From assembly GCA_947487745.1 (NCBI GenBank), contig CANKXQ010000006.1, positions 1 through 16,700 of the forward strand: 16,700 bases of DNA, read 5' to 3'. Both the position numbers and the translations under genes were made by a program. The first letter of the stretch is position 1, and each line of letters begins with the position of its first letter. Positions 1,012 to 16,700 of the stretch are shown here, in pieces. The DNA is from Spartobacteria bacterium. Lineage in GTDB: Bacteria; Verrucomicrobiota; Verrucomicrobiia; Chthoniobacterales; Terrimicrobiaceae. Below the pieces are notes generated by a model, which worked only from the letters and a program-made list of their open reading frames with translations, did not search any database and was not told the DNA's origin.

Positions 1012-1611
1012 TCAGACCCTGCGTTGTTTTGGCGGGCGGCAGCCGTTGTGAGGGATCGGCGTGACGTCGCGGATGACGGTGACATCGAGGCCGATTGCTT
1101 GCATGGCGCGGACGGCGGATTCGCGGCCTGAGCCTGGGCCTTTGACGCGAACTTCGACTTCCTTGAGGCCGTGCCCCATGGCTTGGCGGCAGGCGTCCTG
1201 CGCTGCCATCTGGGCTGCGTAGGCGGTGCTTTTGCGGGAGCCTTTGAAGCCGCACTTGCCGGCGCTGGACCATCCGATGATGGCGCCGCGGAGGTCGGTG
1301 ATGCTGATGATGGTGTTGTTGAAGCTGGCTTGAACGTGGGCGATGCCCTGGATGACGTTTTTGCTGCCCTTGGCCTTGACGATCTTGATTGGTTCAATCG
1401 TGTCATCGAGGGAGATGCTGACCGGCGAAGGAGCTGCAGTGGTCGCTTTTTCCGCGCCAGCGGCTTTCTTGGCTTTAGGAGCCGCCTTGGGTTTTGGAGC
1501 TTTCTTGGCAGGGATTTCGGCGGTTGCGGCGGGAGCCTCGGCTATTGCGGCGGGGGCTGCTGGAGCAGTCTCGACGGGCGCTTCGGCTGGTGTTGTGTTT
1601 TCTTCACTCAT
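1012..1611 (-). CDS. rpsK: 30S ribosomal protein S11 with long N-terminal extension
   Basis: S11 sits on the 30S platform near the E site and the mRNA exit. The protein is 199 residues against about 130 for typical bacterial S11. The conserved core runs from about residue 85 to 199 and includes [12 protein letters not shown] (95-106), GSRKST (124-129), [10 protein letters not shown] (156-165) and the C-terminal [18 protein letters not shown]. Residues 1-80 are an extra low-complexity segment: acidic and Ala/Pro-rich first (1-35), then Lys/Ala/Pro-rich (36-58), resembling a histone H1-like tail. The only ATG is at the head of the extension, so the extension is probably real. There is no clear Shine-Dalgarno site. 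The gap to rpsM is 19 bases. Confidence 0.96.
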
Positions 1612-2426: not shown

Positions 2427-3163
2427 GTCAATACTTCCGGAGCGTGATCTGTAATTAAAACGGTATGCTCAAAATGAGCGGAGGGGAGTCCGTCGGCAGT
2501 GACGGCGGTCCACTTGTCGGCGAGAACTTTCACATCTGCGCGGCCCATGTTGATCATAGGCTCGATGGCGAGTGTCATGCCGGGTTTGAGTTTTGGTCCG
2601 CTCCCGCGTTTGCCGAAATTTGGCACTTGGGGATCCTCGTGAAGTTTGCGACCGACGCCGTGGCCGACGAATTCGCGCACGACGCTGAATCCATTTTTAA
2701 CGGCTTCGGTTTCCACAAAATTTGAAATGTCGCCGACGCGATGACCGGGACGGGCGAGTTGAACGGCACCGTTGAGAATATCCTCGGTGACGGTGAGGAG
2801 GCGTTCAATCTCAGGGTCAATGATGCCAACAGGAACCGATGTGGCGTTGTCGCCAATCCAACCATCGCGAATGATGCCGACATCCATTTTGACAATGTCG
2901 CCGTAGGCAATCGCACGGGAGCTACCGATTCCATGGACAACCTCTTCATTAAGGCTGATGCAAATATGGCCGGGAAATTTTTTGTATCCCAGAAAGGCGC
3001 TGCGAACCCCGGCGGCGGACATCAACTGGGCAGCGGCGTGGTCGATTTCGCCGGTGGTCACGCCAGGAGCTATGCGGCAGGCCAATTCGTTAAGAATCTG
3101 GGCAGCAACCTCGCCAGCTTGGCGCATTTTTTCAATCTCATGGGGACGCTTGATACTGATCAT
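2399..3163 (-). CDS. map: methionine aminopeptidase, type I
   Basis: Map removes the initiator methionine from nascent proteins. It is a cytosolic M24A metallopeptidase with a pita-bread fold. All five metal ligands are present: Asp94 (VKMDVG), Asp105 (WIGDNA), His168 (FVGHGVG), Glu201 (LAIEPM) and Glu232 (HFEHT). His77 (VVHGIG) matches the catalytic substrate-binding histidine. The length of 254 residues is close to the E. coli enzyme, with no N-terminal extension. The start has one of the few strong Shine-Dalgarno sites in the window, AAGGAGG at 3169-3175, six to eight bases upstream. The 3' end runs 28 bases into infA. The usual upstream partner adk is missing; see the entry at 3160-3318. 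Confidence 0.97.
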
Positions 3164-3318
3164 GCGACCTCCTTCGCGTTGCTAAGGAAATCCGCACTGA
3201 TGACGTCCAAGCCAAAGAAATCCAATACCCGACAAATCGAGGGGCGGGTGTTGGCGTCCTTGCCGTAAAGTGGCGGACAAAGCAAAACAGCGCAGGTTTT
3301 CAAGACTACAAAGGCACG
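3160..3318 (-). pseudogene. open stretch between secY and map, possible adenylate kinase remnant
   Basis: Directly after the secY TAG the same frame stays open for 52 codons and stops at TGA 3160-3162, which overlaps the map start as ATGA. The translation contains AVLLCPPLYGKDANTR followed by ICRVLDFFGLDVISADFL. This resembles the N-terminus of adenylate kinase: LLGPPGSGKGTQ with P-loop glycines replaced, then the FGL..IStgDlL region, with about four extra residues between them. adk commonly lies exactly between secY and map. There is no ATG or GTG in frame; TTG at 3301-3303 would be the first start and has no Shine-Dalgarno site. I read it as a likely relic of adk, or less likely a small coupled ORF. 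The similarity was judged by eye. Confidence 0.35.
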
Positions 3319-4827
3319 CTAGAGTTGCGTGGCGAAATAAATCGTCACACCGGCTATGACGAGGATTGCAATACCGGCATATATCCAGACGAGTGTCTGG
3401 TCATTGATGGATTGAGCGGACGAAAGACGGCTGCGTGATTCCTGAGCACTGCGGATACGGCCTTTGCGGAGGAAACCATCATAGTGGCGCTGAAGAAGGT
3501 GTGTCTCCACTTGGCGCATGGTATCAAGCACCACGCCCACGATAATCAAGAGTCCAGTGCCTCCAAAGAACTGCGAGGTCATGTAAGGAACATTAAGGCT
3601 CTGGCTAAGTAGCTGTGGCAAAACAGCCACTGCGGTCAAGAAAATAGCTCCCGCGAAGGTCAAGCGGGTCATCGTGTAGTCCAAGAAATCTGCAGTCGGC
3701 TTGCCAGGACGCACACCGGGAATGAAACCACCGTATTTCTTGAGGTCGTCAGCAATCTGGACGGGTTGAAATTGGGTTGCAACCCAGAAATAGCTGAAGA
3801 AGAAAATCATCAGCGCATAGAAAAGATAATGCAACCATCCGTAGGTGAGAAGATTTGAAAGATCTTGAGCCCAACCCACACCTGGGAAGGCCATGTTCAA
3901 GATCGTGGATGGGAAGAGCAGGATGGCTTGAGCAAAAATGATCGGCATGACGCCGGCATAATTGATCTTGAGAGGCATGTATTGAGTTTGCCCGCCATAA
4001 ACTTTGCGCCCGACAACGCGTTTGGCGTATTGGACACTGATCTTTCGCTGAGCTTGCGTCACAGCTATGACCGCTGCAATGACGAAGAAGAGAAAACCAA
4101 TCATTAAGACCAAGACGACAGGGCTAACGGCCGACTGGGCATTGGCCGCGCTGGGAACGAATGTCCTCCAAGCCTGAATCAAACCAGCGGGCAACTGAGC
4201 CAATATGCCTACGGTGATGATGATAGACATGCCATTGCCAATACCTTTTTCAGTAAGCTGGTCACCCAACCACATGAGGAGCAAGGTCCCAGCAGTCATC
4301 GTAATGATGGTGATGAGCTGGAAACCAATACCTGGAGTGGTCACCAAAGGCAGCCCCAAGTTGTTGATAGTATCCATGATTCCTGGAAGGAATGGATTAG
4401 CTTGGGGATTTTCAAACGATCTTGCTAGGAGATATGCTTGAAAGATGCAAAGCCCGATCGTGGCGTATCGGGTGTATTGCATAATTTTCTGACGCCCACC
4501 GTCCTCGCGGGAAAGTTTGCCCAACCGTGGAATCACGGCCGTGAGGAGCTGGAGCATAATCGATGCGCTGATAAAAGGCATCACTCCAAGAGAGAAAATG
4601 GCGCAATTTGCCAATGCACCACCACTGAAGAGGTTAAAAAGCGCAGCAACGCCGCCGGTCGAGGCGGCACCGGCATGATCAAGGAACCACTGGCGGAGAA
4701 CTTGGGCGTTGACCCCAGGAGTGGTTATAGCCGAACCGGCGCGGATCACGATGATCGCCGCAAGAGTGAAGAGCACTCGGGAGCGCAGTTCAGGAATCTT
4801 AAAAATGTTGGCGAAGGCGCTGATCAT
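3319..4827 (-). CDS. secY: protein translocase channel SecY with an extra C-terminal membrane segment
   Basis: SecY is the pore of the Sec translocon and exports or inserts proteins at the inner membrane. The 502-residue protein contains family motifs such as LGVMPFISASIMLQLL (80-95), LSREDGGRQKIMQYTRY (105-121) and GDQLTEKGIGNGMS (188-201), and the late segment GTGLLIIVGVVLDTMRQ. Standard SecY proteins (about 430-450 residues) end soon after the cytoplasmic RHYDGFLRKGRIR, found here around residues 447-459. This one continues with a polar linker and a further hydrophobic stretch at 478-498, so it probably has eleven membrane segments. The start ATG 4825-4827 has no Shine-Dalgarno site and lies just after a hairpin across the rplO stop. 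Confidence 0.97.
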   Translation of the reverse strand: MISAFANIFKIPELRSRVLFTLAAIIVIRAGSAITTPGVNAQVLRQWFLDHAGAASTGGVAALFNLFSGGALANCAIFSLGVMPFISASIMLQLLTAVIPRLGKLSREDGGRQKIMQYTRYATIGLCIFQAYLLARSFENPQANPFLPGIMDTINNLGLPLVTTPGIGFQLITIITMTAGTLLLMWLGDQLTEKGIGNGMSIIITVGILAQLPAGLIQAWRTFVPSAANAQSAVSPVVLVLMIGFLFFVIAAVIAVTQAQRKISVQYAKRVVGRKVYGGQTQYMPLKINYAGVMPIIFAQAILLFPSTILNMAFPGVGWAQDLSNLLTYGWLHYLFYALMIFFFSYFWVATQFQPVQIADDLKKYGGFIPGVRPGKPTADFLDYTMTRLTFAGAIFLTAVAVLPQLLSQSLNVPYMTSQFFGGTGLLIIVGVVLDTMRQVETHLLQRHYDGFLRKGRIRSAQESRSRLSSAQSINDQTLVWIYAGIAILVIAGVTIYFATQL

Positions 4828-9389: not shown

Positions 9390-10094
9390 TTATACAGCCT
9401 GCGGAGCCTCAGCCGAGGCTTGGACTGTTGGCGATGATTGGCGAGGTTCCTGAACTTTCTCTGGAACTTCTTCCACTTTCTTGCAGATCCAGCACTTAAC
9501 ACCGATTTTACCGGCTACTGTTTCTGCCTCTGTAAAACCATAGTCGATCGGTGTGCGGAGGGTGTGAAGTGGAACTTTGCCCTCGTGGTAGCGCTCGGTG
9601 CGGGCAATTTCTGCTCCACCAAGGCGGCCGGCTACACGGATTTTGATACCCAAAGCACCCTGTTCCATGGTGATTTGGACTGCGCGCTTCATGGCGCGAC
9701 GGAAAGAAATGCGACGCTCGAGCTGGGAGGCGACATTTTCAGCGACGAGTTGGGCATCCATGTCTGGATTCTTAACCTCGACAATGTCGATTTTGACTTG
9801 TTTTCCACCAGCGAGATCGCTGACCTCTTTGGTGAGGCTTTCAATTTCTTGGCCACGGCGACCGATGACAACACCTGGACGGGCGGTGTGAATCGTGACA
9901 CGAACACTGTTCCATGCACGCTCGATGACGATGCGCGAGATGGCTGCTTGCTTAAGCTTTTTCTTGAGAACATTGCGGATTTTTTCGTCAGCAATGAGAT
10001 AGTCGGCAAAATCTTTGCGCGAGGCATACCAGCGTGAACCCCAGTCGCGAGTGACCGGGAGGCGGAATCCGATTGGATTAACTTTTTGTCCCAT
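9390..10094 (-). CDS. rpsC: 30S ribosomal protein S3
   Basis: S3 lines the mRNA entry channel in the 30S head. It has 234 residues. It begins [20 protein letters not shown]. The type II KH domain has the GRRG loop at 78-81 ([15 protein letters not shown]). The C-terminal domain includes [20 protein letters not shown] and the end [11 protein letters not shown]. That end contains Cys201 and Cys204 as CxxC. After it comes a low-complexity tail of about 28 residues rich in Glu, Pro, Gln and Ala. AAGGAAT seven bases upstream of the ATG is a fair Shine-Dalgarno site, lying in the end of rplV two bases away. Confidence 0.97.
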
Positions 10095-10096
10095 GA

Positions 10097-10570
10097 TTAT
10101 TCCTTGGTTTCCGCAGTTGTAGCGGAGGCTTCTGTTGATGTTAAGGCCGCGACTTGTGCTGCAGGAGCTTTCTGCTTGGCGGTCGATTTCTTGTTCGCGG
10201 ATTTCTTCTTCGGCTTGTCGGCGCGACGAACGATTTCAACTTCGTCCGTGAGAGTCACGCTGATGTGGCTGGTGCGCTTGCGGATGGGACCTGCGCTGCC
10301 ACGAGCTTTTGGCTGAAAGCGCTTGAGAGTTGGCCCCTCTCCAACAACAGCTTCCTTAACAACAAGGTCGTTGGGGTTGAGTTGATTGTTATTCTCAGCG
10401 TTGGCTATCGCGCTTTTGAGCGTCTTAAGAATGAGGCCTGCAGCTTTTTTGGGAGTGAAACGCAGGAGATCCACTGCGTCGGTAGCTGGCAACCCTTGAA
10501 TGGCACGAGTGACCTCGCGAGCCTTGAAGGCCGAGATTTTGGCGAACCTATGAATCGATTTTACCTGCAT
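10097..10570 (-). CDS. rplV: 50S ribosomal protein L22 with a C-terminal tail
   Basis: L22 sends a beta hairpin into the exit tunnel and contacts 23S rRNA of all domains. The protein has 157 residues against about 110 in the family. The core (1-114) has [60 protein letters not shown] and the final HISVTLTDE. Residues 116-157 are additional: first Lys-rich ([17 protein letters not shown]), then Ala/Thr/Glu-rich. The gene is separated from rpsS by an inserted coiled-coil gene that ends 17 bases upstream. There is no clear Shine-Dalgarno site. Confidence 0.96.
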
Positions 10571-10587
10571 TGTTATGTTGTGTTTAT

Positions 10588-11373
10588 TTATTTTTGGGCA
10601 TCCACTTTGAGGGTGTCGCCTTTTTCTATACGAGTAGTTTCAGTCGTAAGAGATTGAATCACGCCCCCGGAAACTTTTTCCCGGACATCAACTATTTTAA
10701 TGGTGTTTATTATTTTGCCATTTCGGTAGACTTGAAACGGCATTCCTACCTTCACCCCATGAGCTCTGCCAATGTTTGCAACAACAAGAGATATTTCATC
10801 TCTCGTATCAAGAACAACACCAGTTGCGATGCTTGGCTCTATGCTATTTTCTTGCAATCGAGTATTATCTTTGAGCAATTCGTTTGTTTTTCTTAACTCA
10901 GACTCGACCGCGAGTCGAGTTTGTGGATTTGTTTCAACTGAGGTTAACAAAATCATTTGAATGGCTTCGGACAGCATTAGCAACTGCCGCCTAGCGGAGT
11001 CTTTGTCACTTTTTATGACTCGCAACTCGCGAAGGCACTGAAGCAATCGCGCTTCCAAAGCCGCTTTATTGCTGTCTTTTTCGGTTGCAGCAAGGGCTTC
11101 GAGTCTGAGATTTGCGTCTTCAAGCTCTCGGCGATTTGCTTCGGCACTATTTCCCATTTCCGCTACTGTAGCAGTCAGCGCGCTAATGGTCGTTTCGGCC
11201 AAGAGGAGTTTTTCCCTCAAGGCACCAATAGTATTAGAATCGGGGGCCGAGACTTGCGTCTTGGCAATCCCCATTCGTGATTCAAAATCTGTCAAAGATC
11301 GTTCATCCTGAGCCTTGGCTATGGAAAGCGTTGGCAGGATGATGAGTGCTGCCGCCTTGGCGACAACCCACAT
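10588..11373 (-). CDS. secreted coiled-coil protein of unknown function inserted in the ribosomal operon
   Basis: The product has 261 residues. Residues 1-21 look like a Sec signal peptide (MWVVAKAAALIILPTLSIAKA) with an AxA cleavage site before Gln22. Residues about 48-176 are predicted helical and coiled-coil by eye: charged, Leu- and Ala-rich, without Pro until 150. Residues about 180-258 look like a compact beta domain, with GVVLDTRDEISLVVANIG, HGVKVGMPFQVYRNGKI and a final EKGDTLKV. This domain recalls the C-terminal barrel of FlgT-like envelope proteins, and the layout recalls MreC. Both are resemblances, not identifications. It starts four bases after rpsS and ends 17 before rplV, so it is certainly in the operon. 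Base composition looks more A/T-rich than its neighbours, and the start lacks a Shine-Dalgarno site. The product is probably periplasmic or outer-envelope. Confidence 0.85.
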   Translation of the reverse strand: MWVVAKAAALIILPTLSIAKAQDERSLTDFESRMGIAKTQVSAPDSNTIGALREKLLLAETTISALTATVAEMGNSAEANRRELEDANLRLEALAATEKDSNKAALEARLLQCLRELRVIKSDKDSARRQLLMLSEAIQMILLTSVETNPQTRLAVESELRKTNELLKDNTRLQENSIEPSIATGVVLDTRDEISLVVANIGRAHGVKVGMPFQVYRNGKIINTIKIVDVREKVSGGVIQSLTTETTRIEKGDTLKVDAQK

Positions 11374-11377
11374 GTAT

Positions 11378-11656
11378 TTACTTGGTCACTTTTGCGGTGT
11401 GAGAACCGTGTTTCTTAAAGATACGGGTTGGGGAAAATTCACCCAACTTATGGCCAACCATATTTTCTGTTACAAAAACAGGAATGAAGGTTTTGCCATT
11501 GTGAACGTTAAAAGTGTGTCCGACAAAGTCTGGGGTGATCGTGCTGCGGCGTGACCAAGTTTTAATTGGTTTCTTGCCGCCCGATTCGTTCATCTTGTCG
11601 ATTTTGTCGAGGAGCTTCCATTCGACATACGGGCCTTTTTTAAGTGAGCGTGCCAT
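11378..11656 (-). CDS. rpsS: 30S ribosomal protein S19
   Basis: S19 lies in the 30S head with S13 and contacts the A-site region. The length of 92 residues is normal. It begins [20 protein letters not shown], contains [20 protein letters not shown] and [20 protein letters not shown], and ends AKVTK. It follows rplB by two bases. In standard operons rplV comes next; here a coiled-coil gene starts four bases after the stop. Confidence 0.97.
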
Positions 11657-11658
11657 GA

Positions 11659-12507
11659 TTAGTTCTTAGCTTTGGATTTACGGCGCTGAACGATGAACGT
11701 ATCGCTGGGTTTATGTTTGCGGCGGGTCTTAAAGCCCTTCGCGAGTTGGCCCCATGGGGACATCGGGTGGTGACGACCGCCACCGCCCTTGCTCTTGCCT
11801 TGTCCTCCACCCATTGGGTGATCGACAGGGTTCATGACCATACCACGAACATGTGGACGGATGCCAAGCCAGCGACTGCGGCCAGCTTTTCCTGACGAAA
11901 CATTCATATGGTCGGAGTTGCCGACTTGACCGATTGTTGCGTAGCAGTTCTCGTTAATGCGGCGGATTTCACCGGAAGCCAGTTTGACCAGAGCATAGCC
12001 ACCTTCGCGGTTGGCTAGGACTGCTACGGAGCCGGCGCTGCGCACGATCTGTCCGCCACGGCCTGGGATAAATTCAACATTGTGAATTGAGGTTCCAAGT
12101 GGGATAGACTTAAGTGGAAGGGCATTTCCGACATTTGGATCTGCCTTCTCGCCTGCCACTACTTTTTGGCCAACCTCAAGGCCAACTGGAGCGAGAATGT
12201 AGGCTTTCTCCCCGTCCTCGTATTTCAGAAGGGCAATGCGCGCTGTGCGATTTGGATCGTATTCGATGGCAGTAACTTCAGCCACTGCATCGCGACGGCT
12301 ACGCTTGAAGTCGATGATACGATAGCGGCGCTTGTGCCCTCCACCGACATGGCGCATCGTGATGCGGCCTTGATTGTTGCGACCACCTGTGCGCTTGATT
12401 GGTTCTGTGAGATTTTTTTCCGGCTTGGTCTTCGTGATCTCAGCGAAATCCGGAAGCGCCTTGAAGCGAGCGGCAGGGGTAAGTGGTCTGAAAGTTTTGA
12501 TGGCCAT
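11659..12507 (-). CDS. rplB: 50S ribosomal protein L2
   Basis: L2 is a highly conserved 50S protein near the peptidyl transferase centre and is needed for subunit association. The protein has 282 residues, about nine more than E. coli. Family features are [60 protein letters not shown] and the C-terminal [20 protein letters not shown]. The first histidine of the DHPHGGG motif, the one linked to activity, is kept; the second is Met. Extra glycines follow the motif. It lies 12 bases after rplW and two before rpsS. Confidence 0.97.
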
Positions 12508-12519
12508 GGTCTGTATTTC

Positions 12520-12807
12520 TTAGACGAGATCGAGTTTTTCGCCCTCTTTCAAGGTAACGATTGCTTTCTTCCAGTTGGCTTGGCGGCCGAAGTCGGCACG
12601 ACGCTCGCGCTTTTTCTTTCCAGCAAAATTGGCTGTGTTCACATCAGCGACCTTCTTTTTGAAGATCACCTCAATGGCGCGTTTGATTTGCAGCTTGTTA
12701 GCTGATGGACGGACACGGAAAACGTATTTGTTAAGCTTTTCGGAAAGCAGAGTGGCTTTCTCGGTCAGCAGGACTGTTTCAATATGGTCGTAAACTTCAA
12801 TATTCAT
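12520..12807 (-). CDS. rplW: 50S ribosomal protein L23
   Basis: L23 sits at the tunnel exit and is the docking point for trigger factor and SRP. It has 95 residues, the usual length. It contains VLLTEKATLLSEKLNKYVFR near the start, ANKLQIKRAIEVIFKKKVAD in the middle and the rRNA-binding loop around NFAGKKKRERRADFGRQANW, ending in TLKEGEKLDLV. Its ATG overlaps the rplD stop by one base (TAATG at 12805-12809), a sign of translational coupling. Confidence 0.96.
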   Translation of the reverse strand: MNIEVYDHIETVLLTEKATLLSEKLNKYVFRVRPSANKLQIKRAIEVIFKKKVADVNTANFAGKKKRERRADFGRQANWKKAIVTLKEGEKLDLV

Positions 12808-13421
12808 TACGCGAGCCTTTCGGAAATTTTGTCGAGCGCCCCGCGAGTCACGATAATTTTGTCGAATGCGAGGAGATGCTCGGTATTAACATCGGATGCA
12901 CGGGTGAGTTGAGCAGTGGCCACATTGCGAGCGGCCTTGAAAGTGTTTTCATCAAACCCTTCGGAAACGATGAGAGTCTTGCGGGCATCAGGGGTAGCCG
13001 AGCGGAGAAGTGAGACGAACTGCTTGGTCTTGGGTTCTGCCACAACGAAGCTATCCACGAGCAGAACATCACCGAGAGCGATGCGTGCGCTGAGAGCCTT
13101 GCGGAGCGCGAGTTTTTTGACGGCCTTCGGAGTGTTCTTGGTATAATCGCGGGGAACTGGTCCATGAGCTACGCCACCACCAACCCAAACTGGGCTTGAG
13201 AAGTATCCGGCGCGGGCACGTCCTGTTCCTTTTTGACGCCATGGTTTGCGACCCGAGAGATTCACATCGGCTTTGGTCTTTGCACAGGCAGTGCCGCTGC
13301 GGCGGGCTGCTTGGAGTGCAACGACCACATCGTGCACAGCCTGGTTGCCCTTGGCTTCCTCTGTGATGAGTTCAATCTTCGCCTTGGCGGCGTCTGCGGC
13401 TGTAAGAACGGTGGCGCTCAT
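12807..13421 (-). CDS. rplD: 50S ribosomal protein L4
   Basis: L4 lines the exit tunnel opposite L22; in E. coli it also represses the S10 operon by binding its leader. I choose ATG 13419-13421, which gives 204 residues starting MSATVLTAADAAK. An in-frame upstream start at 13445 would add MCRLKFLI, which is unlike the family and overlaps a small ORF. Signature parts are SGRKPWRQKGTGRARAGYFS, VGGGVAHGPVPRDYTKNTPK and KALSARIALGDVLLVDSF. It is the first ribosomal gene here: rpsJ (S10) and rplC (L3), normally upstream, are missing. No Shine-Dalgarno site is seen; the region before the ATG is T/A-rich. Confidence 0.95.
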   Translation of the reverse strand: MSATVLTAADAAKAKIELITEEAKGNQAVHDVVVALQAARRSGTACAKTKADVNLSGRKPWRQKGTGRARAGYFSSPVWVGGGVAHGPVPRDYTKNTPKAVKKLALRKALSARIALGDVLLVDSFVVAEPKTKQFVSLLRSATPDARKTLIVSEGFDENTFKAARNVATAQLTRASDVNTEHLLAFDKIIVTRGALDKISERLA

Positions 13422-13432
13422 GATCAAAAATT

Positions 13433-13501
13433 TTAGACGGCACAAGGACTCACCACCGCTTTCCTAGCGGCTTCGGCTGGAGTATGTGCGTTGTATTTCA
13501 T
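13433..13501 (-). CDS. possible 22-residue leader ORF before rplD
   Basis: An ATG at 13499-13501 opens a 22-codon frame, MKYNAHTPAEAARKAVVSPC followed by AV, ending in TAA 11 bases before the rplD ATG. A purine-rich run (GGAAAAAAAG) lies four bases or more upstream. It shows no similarity to the L3 C-terminus. It could be a leader peptide coupled to rplD, a relic of a lost upstream gene or chance. The same frame is open further upstream to a GTG at 13666 (77 codons), but that part overlaps the presumed leader and looks non-coding. Confidence 0.25.
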   Translation of the reverse strand: MKYNAHTPAEAARKAVVSPCAV

Positions 13502-13702
13502 GTTTCTTTTTTTCCGCGCAGCTTCAGGTTTCAAAGGAAAGGAATCTTCGATAATTCGCTGATTCCATCCCCCTCGAGGCTTTGCGGGAAGGGGGAAGCT
13601 ACAGAGCCGCGAAAAGTTGGCAAGAGAAAAAATGAAAAAAATTACAAGACTCGTTCTTGTTACCACCGCGATGGAATGCCGCGAGGAAATTCCCCGGAGT
13701 CT
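13502..13702 (-). promoter_or_regulatory. putative leader and promoter region of the ribosomal operon
   Basis: This is the largest non-coding stretch within the minus-strand series and the natural place for the operon promoter. A weak sigma-70-like pair is TTGCCA (13618-13623) and TAGCTT (13596-13601) with a 16-base spacer, but the -10 box matches only three of six bases. Upstream of it is a strong A/T run (13624-13652). Downstream is an inverted repeat, TCCCCCT (13568-13574) and AGGGGGA (13590-13596), around a 15-base loop, with no T-run on either strand. The repeat could be part of a regulatory leader, for example for L4, but this is inference. Confidence 0.3.
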
Positions 13703-14185
13703 TCAATAGCGAAATTCCGGCTTCGAATCAGCCGGGGCTTCCATCTCGGAAATCGGATGGAGAACATCAACGGGTTCCGGCAAAGACTCGAATTCAGGCA
13801 TTGGAACAGAGCTTTCGAACGCATTCGAAATTATCGCCGAACCGCTCTGAGAGCGTTTGCGAGCGGGGCTCGCTGAGGGCTCAGGTTCACGCGGCGGGGC
13901 TGGCTCAATCTCTTCGTTGGCGATGTAGCCCGTGCGACCGTCCTTGATCTCCACATAACTGAAACCAAACTCGCGGCGCAGCATTTTCACACGCTCTCCC
14001 CGCTTGAGCGAAGCATCCGGCCCGCGCTCTTGTCCCGGCCCGAGAGAGTAGAAAGGAGTATAGTCCGACTGGACCAAAAACTCCGGCGCCTTGTCCGGAT
14101 CGAAGCTCTGCGTGGCGCATCCGACGAGACACGCAGCAGTCAGAAAAAGAACAGCAATTATTTTGAATGTTGAGAGGAGCACCAT
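13703..14185 (-). CDS. small SH3-domain-like lipoprotein
   Basis: I choose ATG 14183-14185, giving 160 residues. A start at 14269 would overlap the upstream gene and add 28 residues before the signal peptide. The N-terminus is a lipoprotein signal (MVLLSTFKIIAVLFLTAACL) with lipobox LVGC and acylated Cys23. Residues about 38-96 resemble a bacterial SH3 domain: DYTPFYSLGPGQ, LKRGERVKMLRREFGFSYVE and IKDGRTGYIANEEIEP. The rest (97-160) is Pro/Glu/Ser-rich and probably disordered. SH3-type domains of this kind often bind cell-wall peptides. It lies 19 bases after the nucleotidyltransferase gene, and GGAG lies somewhat far upstream of the ATG. Function is not known. Confidence 0.8.
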   Translation of the reverse strand: MVLLSTFKIIAVLFLTAACLVGCATQSFDPDKAPEFLVQSDYTPFYSLGPGQERGPDASLKRGERVKMLRREFGFSYVEIKDGRTGYIANEEIEPAPPREPEPSASPARKRSQSGSAIISNAFESSVPMPEFESLPEPVDVLHPISEMEAPADSKPEFRY

Positions 14186-14204
14186 GTCTGCAAGGTCTCC
14201 AAGA

Positions 14205-15182
14205 CTATGCACCGATGGACCCCGGTGCGCAATCGCATTGGCACACACTCTGCGATGTGAGCACGGCATCGATCAGGCGTGCTCGTGGTTCAACTTTTGC
14301 ATCCGGCCAGAGGATCACATTTTCCAACACGGCATCCTCTCCCACATCCGCTCCCGCCGCGACCGCCGAGAAACCTGCAATCGAAGCTCCAGGGCGAATG
14401 CGCGCACCGCTTTGAACCGGCTGCAGCCAGTCAGCGGGAAGATAAGAAAAGGTGTGTGTGCCTTCTTTCAAAACCCGGTGCACACCCATGTAGGACGGGA
14501 TATTCCCGATATCAAACCACACGCCTTCATCGATCAACTCTCCACCCACCACAACTCCGCGACGCATAAGATCGACCAACACAGGGATAATGGAAACAAC
14601 ATCACCCGCCGGGATGTGTTGGAAAATTTCAGGAGAAAAAACACTCACGCCTGTGAAAAGAAACGATGGCTCGGAGCGCCCCCCGATGAGACCTCGCATA
14701 TCGGTGATACGACCTGTCGAGGGATCACGCTGAATGCGGCGCTCCGCACCAGAGGCGCGCAGCGCGAGTGTTGCGATGCGGCCCGAGCGCTGGTGCGATG
14801 CGATCAGGCTTTGCAGCGGGAAGTCCGCGAGGACATCCCCATTGTAAACCAGAAAGGGCTCATCTCCGATGAGGCCGGCCGCGTTCTTGATGCCGCCGCC
14901 TGTCTCCAGAAGCACCGGTTCATGGCGGAAAAAAATTGGGTATCCGCGATACTCCGCTCTGCCGTTGGCCTCGCCAAGCCAGCGCGCGTAAGCTTCCGGT
15001 CGATGGTGCGTGTTGACAACGAATCGGGTGACTCCTGCGGCAATCAGGTGATCAAAAGCAAAAGTGATGAGCGGTTTGTTGAAGATAGGAACCAGAGGCT
15101 TCGGCCGCTCGTCGGTAAGGGGCCGCAGACGGGTTCCCAACCCCGCGCCAAGAACGAAAGCCGTCTTGATTTCTCCGCTCAA
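14205..15182 (-). CDS. sugar-phosphate nucleotidyltransferase (MurU or mannose-1-phosphate guanylyltransferase type)
   Basis: The enzyme should transfer a nucleotide from an NTP to a sugar-1-phosphate, releasing pyrophosphate. The protein has 325 residues. The N-terminal Rossmann-like domain has the signature GAGLGTRLRPLTDERPKPL (12-30) and the metal-binding Asp116 in VYNGDVLAD. The end of the catalytic domain has DEGVWFDIGNIPSYMGVHR (218-236). Residues about 259-307 form irregular hexapeptide repeats of a left-handed beta helix (GARIRPGASIAG, GEDAVLENVILWPDAKV). The substrate cannot be fixed from sequence: MurU (peptidoglycan recycling) and GDP-mannose synthesis are both possible. The last residues contain an unusual CQCDC (314-318). 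It lies 24 bases after the acetyltransferase. Confidence 0.88.
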   Translation of the reverse strand: MSGEIKTAFVLGAGLGTRLRPLTDERPKPLVPIFNKPLITFAFDHLIAAGVTRFVVNTHHRPEAYARWLGEANGRAEYRGYPIFFRHEPVLLETGGGIKNAAGLIGDEPFLVYNGDVLADFPLQSLIASHQRSGRIATLALRASGAERRIQRDPSTGRITDMRGLIGGRSEPSFLFTGVSVFSPEIFQHIPAGDVVSIIPVLVDLMRRGVVVGGELIDEGVWFDIGNIPSYMGVHRVLKEGTHTFSYLPADWLQPVQSGARIRPGASIAGFSAVAAGADVGEDAVLENVILWPDAKVEPRARLIDAVLTSQSVCQCDCAPGSIGA

Positions 15183-15206
15183 TGTCCACCCTCCCTTGCG
15201 AGGAAA

Positions 15207-15668
15207 TCAGGATTCATGATCCACAAAATAGCGCATCGGCTTCATCTCGCTTTCGACGAATCCATGCTTGAGATAAAACCGACGCGACTCCTCGGGGTTG
15301 TCGGTGAGAAGTGTGATGCGGAGAAATTTTTTATCACGCGCAAAGCCGATGGCATGTTGCAATAGGCGCGAGCCGTAGCCGCTCCCGCGATGCTCCCGGT
15401 GCACCACCAGGTCTTCCAGCACCAGCACAAAGCCGCCCTCCGCCGTGCTGATCGTGATGAGCAGATTGATCATTCCAATGATCATCCTCTCATTTCGAAG
15501 GACAAAAATTCGACCTCTCGATGGTTGCTCCAAGATCAGCCGCAGGCCGCGCATTTGTTTTTCCCTGTCGGGCTGAAAATCCGCCTCTTGCAAGAACAAG
15601 TCACGGAGGAGTTCAGTCAACTCAGGCAGGTCGTCCAAGGTCGCGGGTTCGATTCGGAGATCGGGCAT
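15207..15668 (-). CDS. GNAT family N-acetyltransferase
   Basis: The 153-residue protein has a single GNAT fold. It opens with LRIEPATLDDLPELTELLRD, typical of the first strand and helix. The acetyl-CoA-binding motif A is LVVHREHRGSGYGSRLLQHA (88-107), with the R-x-x-R-G-x-G-Y-G pattern. Motif B is RRFYLKHGFVES (129-140). The substrate is unknown. It lies 52 bases after mutL and 24 before the nucleotidyltransferase, so it is probably cotranscribed, but these neighbours do not define a pathway. Confidence 0.88.
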   Translation of the reverse strand: MPDLRIEPATLDDLPELTELLRDLFLQEADFQPDREKQMRGLRLILEQPSRGRIFVLRNERMIIGMINLLITISTAEGGFVLVLEDLVVHREHRGSGYGSRLLQHAIGFARDKKFLRITLLTDNPEESRRFYLKHGFVESEMKPMRYFVDHES

Positions 15669-15720
15669 GGACGATTTATCTCACACCGATTTACCTCAAG
15701 CAACCCGCGAGCGCCGGAAA

Positions 15721-16700
15721 TCAGCGGCCAAACTTTCGATCCAGCTCGCTGAACGACCATTGGATCATGGTAGGCCTTCCTTGCGGACAGGCATAGGGCA
15801 ACTCGCATTTCAGCAACTCCCCCACCAGACGGCGCGCGCGGGATTCCTCGTAGTCGAAGCCATTCATCGCGGCGATGCGCGAGACCGAGCGCACGAGGGC
15901 ATCGAGCACCGGTTGGCCCGACCCAAGAAGACCAGTGGATCGCAGAGTTTCGCACACATCGAGCAACGCCGCGCGGGCATCCCGCTCCGCGAGGCACGAG
16001 GGTAGTGCCTCGACCTTGAAGGAATATCCCCCGAAGGCTTCGAGTAAAAATCCCGCCTTCTGCAGGGCTTCGAGATTTTCGGAAATCCAGACCGCATCCT
16101 TTGGCGTGAGCTCCACGATTTCTGGGAGGAGTAAGCGCTGAGAGGTCACATGACCGACAGCAGCCTCGCGGCGAAGGCTCTCGAAAAGAATCCGCTCCGA
16201 TGCCGCCCGGGCATCGAGGAGAACGAGTCCCTCCGCCCCCTCCATAAGTATCCAGCGCCCGCCCAGCCCGCCCAGAAGACGAAAGGCATCGTCATTCCCT
16301 ACCGCTCGCTCGGGCGGCGGCATGACGGGCAGATCCATTTGCGGAGGCGGGGAAAACGCCGGACGCGATGGGCGATGGGGAACCGCCTCATGCACCTCTT
16401 CGCTCCGAGGCGTCGCCGGCTCTTTCGGAGCAGCCTGCACCGGCGTCCTAAAGGCATCCAGCGCTTGCTTGGCAGCCGCATAGACCGCCTGCCGAACCTG
16501 ATCCGGTCGATGCAACCGCACCTCGCGCTTGGCGGGGTGCACATTGCAATCGAAAGAGAGTGGATCCATCGTAACCCTTAAAACCGCCAGCGGATGCCGC
16601 CCCTTTGGCAGCGCCTCCGCATAAGCCTCACGCAGGGATTGAAAGACCGCCGGACACTGAACCACACGCCTGTTGAGAACCACAAACTGCAACTCCCGGT
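15721..16700 (-). CDS. mutL: DNA mismatch repair protein MutL, C-terminal part (partial)
   Basis: MutL links mismatch recognition by MutS to strand removal. The gene enters from the right edge; about 326 residues are visible. They begin in the GHKL-associated domain (QFVVLNRRVVQCPAVFQ, then SFDCNVHPAKREVRL), followed by a Pro-rich linker and the C-terminal dimerisation domain from GRWILMEGAEGLVLLDARAA. The endonuclease motifs are altered: DQHAxxE reads DARAASE (16180-16215), the CPHGRP motif reads CPQGRP (15772-15792) and the ACR-type motif reads SRIAAMNG. The protein ends SELDRKFGR as in many MutLs. Latent nuclease activity is therefore doubtful. Confidence 0.93.
   Translation of the reverse strand, partial: RELQFVVLNRRVVQCPAVFQSLREAYAEALPKGRHPLAVLRVTMDPLSFDCNVHPAKREVRLHRPDQVRQAVYAAAKQALDAFRTPVQAAPKEPATPRSEEVHEAVPHRPSRPAFSPPPQMDLPVMPPPERAVGNDDAFRLLGGLGGRWILMEGAEGLVLLDARAASERILFESLRREAAVGHVTSQRLLLPEIVELTPKDAVWISENLEALQKAGFLLEAFGGYSFKVEALPSCLAERDARAALLDVCETLRSTGLLGSGQPVLDALVRSVSRIAAMNGFDYEESRARRLVGELLKCELPYACPQGRPTMIQWSFSELDRKFGR

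Follow-up and report, generated by a model that had tools for sequence, protein, structure and literature searches.

What is a gene for an apparently exported protein doing within an operon that ranks among the best conserved in bacteria? In a stretch of 16,700 nucleotides from Spartobacteria bacterium (contig CANKXQ010000006.1; hereafter the window), an undescribed gene at positions 10588–11373, which we label X together with its family, lies between the genes for ribosomal proteins S19 (rpsS) and L22 (rplV). X was found at the same place in much of Verrucomicrobiota, under purifying selection and diverging in step with neighbouring ribosomal proteins, and its antiquity in the phylum is well supported. 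Equally well supported is its anatomy, which combines a hydrophobic N-terminus, in most members a helical stalk, and a FlgT-like barrel.

An unnamed gene between rpsS and rplV

10588..11373, minus strand: X, the gene under study; 261 amino acids, ATG start (from the list of open reading frames, the relatives and the ratio of nonsynonymous to synonymous substitution rates, dN/dS)
11378..11656, minus strand: rpsS (S19), upstream neighbour of X
10097..10570, minus strand: rplV (L22), downstream neighbour of X and its more constant partner

Read along the minus strand, rpsS ends 4 nucleotides before X, and X ends 17 nucleotides before rplV. A preliminary description of the locus had placed a 261-residue open reading frame (ORF) here, and both its coordinates and its gaps were borne out. 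From the tight packing it had concluded that the protein is made along with the ribosome, and co-transcription is indeed plausible from the gene spacing. A scan of positions 9900–13600 for predicted promoters and terminators yielded nothing decisive, with 4 promoter-like sites against 2.7 expected and 8 terminator-like sites against 5.6 expected. One of the promoter-like sites, at 10586–10558 of the minus strand, immediately precedes rplV.

X is more than a chance ORF, as a search of 5.8 billion proteins returned 341 at E ≤ 1. Among the 120 relatives listed, all carry the source name 'hypothetical protein' save one, 'septal ring factor EnvC'. Pfam gave a weak match to FlgT_C only (residues 197–224, E 2.9e-4, 21.6 bits against a cut-off of 27), a scan of NCBIfam gave nothing at E ≤ 5, and literature searches found no description of the family, in agreement with the preliminary description, which knew of no described family at this locus. 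The PVC signature protein treated in PMC3444138, of 53–80 amino acids, is a different one.

Conservation of the junction within the order

The genes for X, S19 and L22 were sought in 97 genomes of the order, and a junction was taken as readable if S19 and L22 lay on one contig, on the same strand and no more than 4 kb apart (85 genomes). X matched in 75 of the 97 genomes, and it stands between S19 and L22 in 69 of the 85 readable junctions. Two of the other 16 (G073 and G078) hold a short divergent member, with profile E values of 3.7e-7 and 2.2e-6. Eleven are closed, with 61–80 nucleotides between the domain matches (nine in family f5, two in genus g23 of family f13), and three have a wider gap without a match: inspection of the sequence revealed no member in G028 and G031, while G040 was judged by gap length only. 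G031 (locus L097) and G040 are two 0.9-Mb genomes of the order with a shortened junction and no X match. Five further genomes have X at a contig edge, next to S19 or L22, and there was neither S19 nor L22 in seven.

In named contigs fetched via X, the gene stands between S19 and L22 in 46 of 47, among them those of Chthoniobacter flavus Ellin428 and Spartobacteria bacterium LR76, and beside S19 at a contig edge in the last. These 47 provide no independent frequency, because X was the means of retrieving them and they share genomes with the survey. Seven weak A1 matches (L082, L085, L090, L091, L094, L095 and L096) lie away from rpsS and rplV in the fetched stretch.

Linkage to rplV across the phylum

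The wider survey took in 288 genomes, all from Verrucomicrobiota; its counts draw on 150 genomes per family among the matches listed, where 277 and 281 genomes matched in all. The order-level X profile matched in 112 of the 288 genomes, paralogues included. Ninety-three of these entered the comparison with rplV; the 19 left out were weak and, by the listed coordinates, not beside a listed rplV. An X-family match lies within 300 nucleotides upstream of rplV in 66 of the 150 genomes with a listed rplV. Forty further regions had no match to this first profile upstream of rplV, and in 30 of them a profile of the barrel found a member on the rplV strand. Because the first barrel profile held four short members picked by eye, the search was re-run with a profile of 89 earlier members only, and the same 30 of 40 were recovered (E 1.8e-19 to 9e-8, −10 to 95 nucleotides from rplV). 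Three more short members were recognized by reading (G097, G238 and G295; profile E 1.1e-13 or better). In total, 127 genomes were examined, with 23 of the 150 outside this set, and in 99 of them X immediately precedes rplV. Of the remaining 28, 15 showed no member on inspection and 13 were counted as lacking one because their gap, at most 255 nucleotides, could not accommodate even the shortest known member (112 amino acids).

S19 and L22 are not found within 4 kb on one contig in 37 of the 68 genomes with both listed; contig breaks are possible in some, and the one-contig genomes G176 and G242 also have the two genes apart. With the first profile, X was found upstream of rplV in 11 of the 37 split genomes; of the remaining 26, 20 regions were fetched, and 16 hold it there. 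As X is present upstream of rplV where rpsS lies elsewhere, its linkage to rplV is more constant than that to rpsS. Relatives of the split-operon group are named Lentisphaerota, Lentisphaerae, Victivallales and Victivallaceae, and X is also present in a genus that the names of its nearest proteins identify as Akkermansia. Several lineages are without X, and these losses show that it is not needed everywhere.

Age, selection and composition

The preliminary description regarded X as inserted, took its composition to suggest a later arrival, and named relatives without the gene and a dN/dS near 1 as grounds for abandoning its case. Synteny proved widespread, and dN/dS was 0.05–0.27 in all nine pairs compared, indicative of purifying selection; the window's X gave 0.22, 0.23 and 0.26 against three close relatives. 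Synonymous divergence of X is of the same order as that of rpsS, rplV and rplB (higher in some pairs), and its nonsynonymous divergence is above theirs. In one close relative (L164, genome G011) the frame is broken near residues 31–45, through decay or an assembly error. Distances between X proteins track those of L22 and S3 over 84 loci (Mantel r = 0.885, reached by 0 of 999 permutations); L031, a duplicate of L030, and L097 were removed from the member set, and L011 was left out of this test. The three subgroups of X are homologous, with hhalign E values of 8.5e-12, 2.4e-10 and 5.7e-7. The idea of a later arrival therefore did not hold, since X occupies the same place in diverged classes and follows the divergence of the ribosomal proteins.

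X had also been called more A/T-rich than its neighbours. In the window its guanine-plus-cytosine (GC) content of 0.461 is below that of most other genes (rplV 0.530, rplB 0.545) and close to that of rpsS (0.448) and rplW (0.462); at third codon positions (GC3, 0.427) it has the lowest value among 26 genes. Among the 60 loci kept by the filter of the script, which are a subset of the junction loci, GC of X is below that of the ribosomal-protein neighbours in the first 12 printed (12/12) and in 36 of 60 overall, with equal means (0.575 and 0.574). The claim thus stands for the window's own clade and fails over the 60 loci, where the equal means indicate that the A/T bias is no mark of late arrival.

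An export-type N-terminus

11311..11373, minus strand: putative N-terminal export signal, residues 1–21, with A-K-A at residues 19–21 (from the sequence; hydrophobic segment conserved)

The signal-like N-terminus with AKA at residues 19–21, noted before, is seen in the sequence. Of 89 members, 84 begin with a hydrophobic segment, whereas an internal control stretch of the same proteins qualified in 1 of 84. Of the five exceptions, L002 has a broken frame, in L025, L075 and L076 a hydrophobic stretch precedes the start taken, and in L066 none was seen. The segment is found in 111 of 116 members of a larger set (111 of 119 counting three left out), but the starts of 30 sequences there were chosen to favour such a segment, and only the 27 that passed were included; 84 of 89 is therefore the preferred figure, because the larger set is biased by start choice. 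Positive charge is greater before the segment than after it in 104 of the 111, equal in 7 and the reverse in none, and A-x-A sites occur in 46 of 111. Some N-termini resemble cleavable signals and others uncleaved anchors, and that of L064 looks like a lipobox. By these simple sequence rules for export and orientation, X is predicted to have the N-terminal signal or anchor and the N-in, C-out topology of an exported envelope protein. X thus seems destined for export to the cell envelope, and its export-type N-terminus (84/89) argues against a cytoplasmic, rRNA-binding ribosomal protein.

A helical stalk and a beta barrel

10849..11238, minus strand: helical stalk, residues 46–175, three predicted helices (AlphaFold2 model; similar in a distant relative)
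10603..10821, minus strand: C-terminal beta barrel, residues 185–257 (model, structure and profile comparisons)
10681..10689, minus strand: D-V-R motif, residues 229–231 (alignments)

AlphaFold2 modelled X of the window with helices at residues 46–96, 103–143 and 150–175 followed by the barrel (mean predicted local distance difference test, pLDDT, 74; predicted template-modelling score, pTM, 0.35), and a Lentisphaerota-type relative with an N-terminal helix, three main helices and the barrel (mean pLDDT 81, pTM 0.41). The C-terminal beta domain anticipated from the sequence was confirmed in the model; the barrel, common to members, is predicted to be six-stranded. The stalk is absent from 12 short members (alignment A8), which consist of signal and barrel only, and members range from 112 to 402 amino acids with the starts as chosen. 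A coiled coil had been proposed at about residues 48–176. The model supports its helices, but hydrophobic heptad periodicity was not significant in X of the window (reached by 396–494 of 500 shuffles) or in the order alignment (61–179 of 1000), and was significant only in Lentisphaerota-type relatives (0–5 of 1000). G202 and R231 are invariant in 41 diverse aligned members; the Lentisphaerota-type and short sets keep G202 but not R231. The final residues of the chain differ from member to member.

In structure comparison by Z score, FlgT or a flagellar LPHT-ring chain ranked first for both models (11.8 and 11.1), with N-terminal barrels of F1-ATPase following within about 1 Z. FlgT and the LPHT-ring chain also lead in Foldseek for the window model, and F1-type barrels for the second. 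The FlgT-like barrel fold is not specific, because it is shared with F1-ATPase barrels. The VIA rows show barrel matches only, and absence from them does not exclude other families.

Comparison with known families

X shares this unspecific barrel fold with FlgT, the H-ring protein of the Vibrio flagellum, yet falls below the gathering score of FlgT_C, as do all of 39 relatives (0/39 over the cut-off). The match covers one barrel, whereas X has a long helical stalk besides. The gene for FlgT lies in a flagellar cluster and that for X in a ribosomal operon; with FlgT_C below cut-off and no flagellar context, X was not assigned to FlgT. A short, weak profile match (E 0.012) was also obtained to the C-terminal part of TsaP, a protein associated with the type IV pilus secretin, but X has no LysM domain in the Pfam scan and its gene context differs. 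It was likewise not placed in the TsaP family, for want of LysM.

There are also unnamed paralogues in the same genomes, which by reading share with X the anchor, the helical stalk and the same kind of barrel. By reading of ORFs they sit elsewhere, next to rnr, dnaX/radC and prfB, and they branch apart from 30 junction members with a support of only 0.66. Examples are L146:2207–3019, L147:2101–2952 and 3000–3815, L148:2544–3362, L149:1632–2540 and L159:2320–3114; two stand in tandem in an Akkermansia genome.

What X may do

The reading that we favour, while giving it only even chances, is that X is an old housekeeping envelope protein of Verrucomicrobiota, a scaffold that is anchored in the membrane or lies in the periplasm and is produced along with L22. 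Its chain would be inserted N-in and C-out, and in the periplasm its helices may assemble into an oligomeric stalk. Analogy with FlgT, TsaP and MreC suggests that the barrel would bind a partner, perhaps one engaged in peptidoglycan synthesis or belonging to an outer-membrane complex. Translation from the same message as L22 would keep the supply of X proportional to ribosome synthesis and hence to growth rate, and may in this way link envelope growth to translation capacity.

It is also possible, if rather unlikely, that X is simply one of the abundant proteins of the periplasm and profits from an operon with strong constitutive expression, with no coupling of ribosome and envelope. Losses of X after which the junction is closed and the ribosomal genes are intact in position are consistent with this, as is the great difference between members in length and stalk (112–402 amino acids). 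Linkage to rplV nevertheless persists in many genomes with rpsS elsewhere, beyond what drift of gene order suggests. Going further than the scaffold reading, X could be a phylum-specific coupling factor whose amount, set with that of L22, matches envelope expansion to ribosome production, a wiring that other bacteria would lack. We regard this as unlikely; if true, it would wire growth rate directly to envelope synthesis.

A part in cell-wall elongation, with X as a one-barrel functional relative of the cell-shape protein MreC working beside a separate MreC, appears improbable. X resembles MreC in its layout of anchor, helices and barrel, and four entries titled MreC or containing it were among the best 29 Foldseek rows for the window model (best E 1.9e-4), with template-modelling (TM) scores that are low when taken over the query length, 0.17–0.20. 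MreC has two beta barrels, however, and X one (residues 185–257); the MreC model of Pfam, PF04085, gave no match to X at E ≤ 5, the fit to FlgT and F1 barrels is equal or better, the stalk is missing from some members, and MreC is absent from the 50 Foldseek rows listed for the second model. MreC is moreover encoded elsewhere in 93 of the 97 genomes of the order, including 10 of the 11 with a closed junction; no match was found in the window's own genome, which is 64% complete. As MreC is separate in these 93, X is not the MreC of these bacteria, and its replacement of MreC is ruled out. Of the MreC- or FlgT-like layout in the preliminary description, the FlgT-like barrel fold stood, and the likeness to MreC is partial.

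SecM regulates secA, and translation or export of X might similarly regulate the downstream genes from rplV to secY. An exported-type chain directly upstream of rplV, with secY further down the same strand run in the window, would suit such a secretion monitor, but the conserved residues lie in the predicted folded barrel and the last residues vary, which makes this highly improbable. Scarcely credible is a membrane-anchored X with its stalk in the cytoplasm, docking ribosomes. Although X is encoded with ribosomal proteins, charge bias predicts C-out in 104 of 111 members and C-in in none, and the A-x-A sites (46/111) and the lipobox-like motif of L064 fit export. A recent foreign insertion or non-functional ORF, for which one might cite the lowest GC3 in the window, a GC below that of neighbours in its own clade and the broken frame in G011, is ruled out by the phylum-wide position, purifying selection and congruent divergence of X.

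Other features of the operon

Several further observations were made along the way. The window has rplD without an upstream rplC (13380–16700). In all 12 genomes of genus g1 that yielded both genes, L3 and S19 are on different contigs or, in G010, 495 kb apart, and contig breaks are possible; in other families L3 lies 1.9–2.0 kb upstream of S19 (6 of 6 genomes). S11 of the window (1012–1611) has an Ala/Pro/Lys-rich N-terminal extension of about 70 residues, and L22 (10097–10570) a Lys/Ala-rich C-terminal one of about 45, both judged against the usual lengths. Adjoining the ribosomal operon, an ORF at 13703–14269 has a lipobox-like LVGC and, by eye, a region resembling an SH3-type domain.

Significance

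Non-ribosomal genes in ribosomal operons are known, and secY, map and infA were read as such in the same window; the folds of the parts of X are known as well. The family itself seems undescribed, in that no Pfam or NCBIfam model covers it and literature searches found no description. For Verrucomicrobium spinosum, targeted mutagenesis exists according to PMC12283558, a transposon essentiality study of that species, and X would be testable there if the species carries it. X represents a conserved, apparently exported, unnamed family in an operon that few others in bacteria match for conservation, in much of Verrucomicrobiota including Akkermansia. It gives a tangible starting point for asking how the growth of the envelope may be coupled to protein synthesis in this group.
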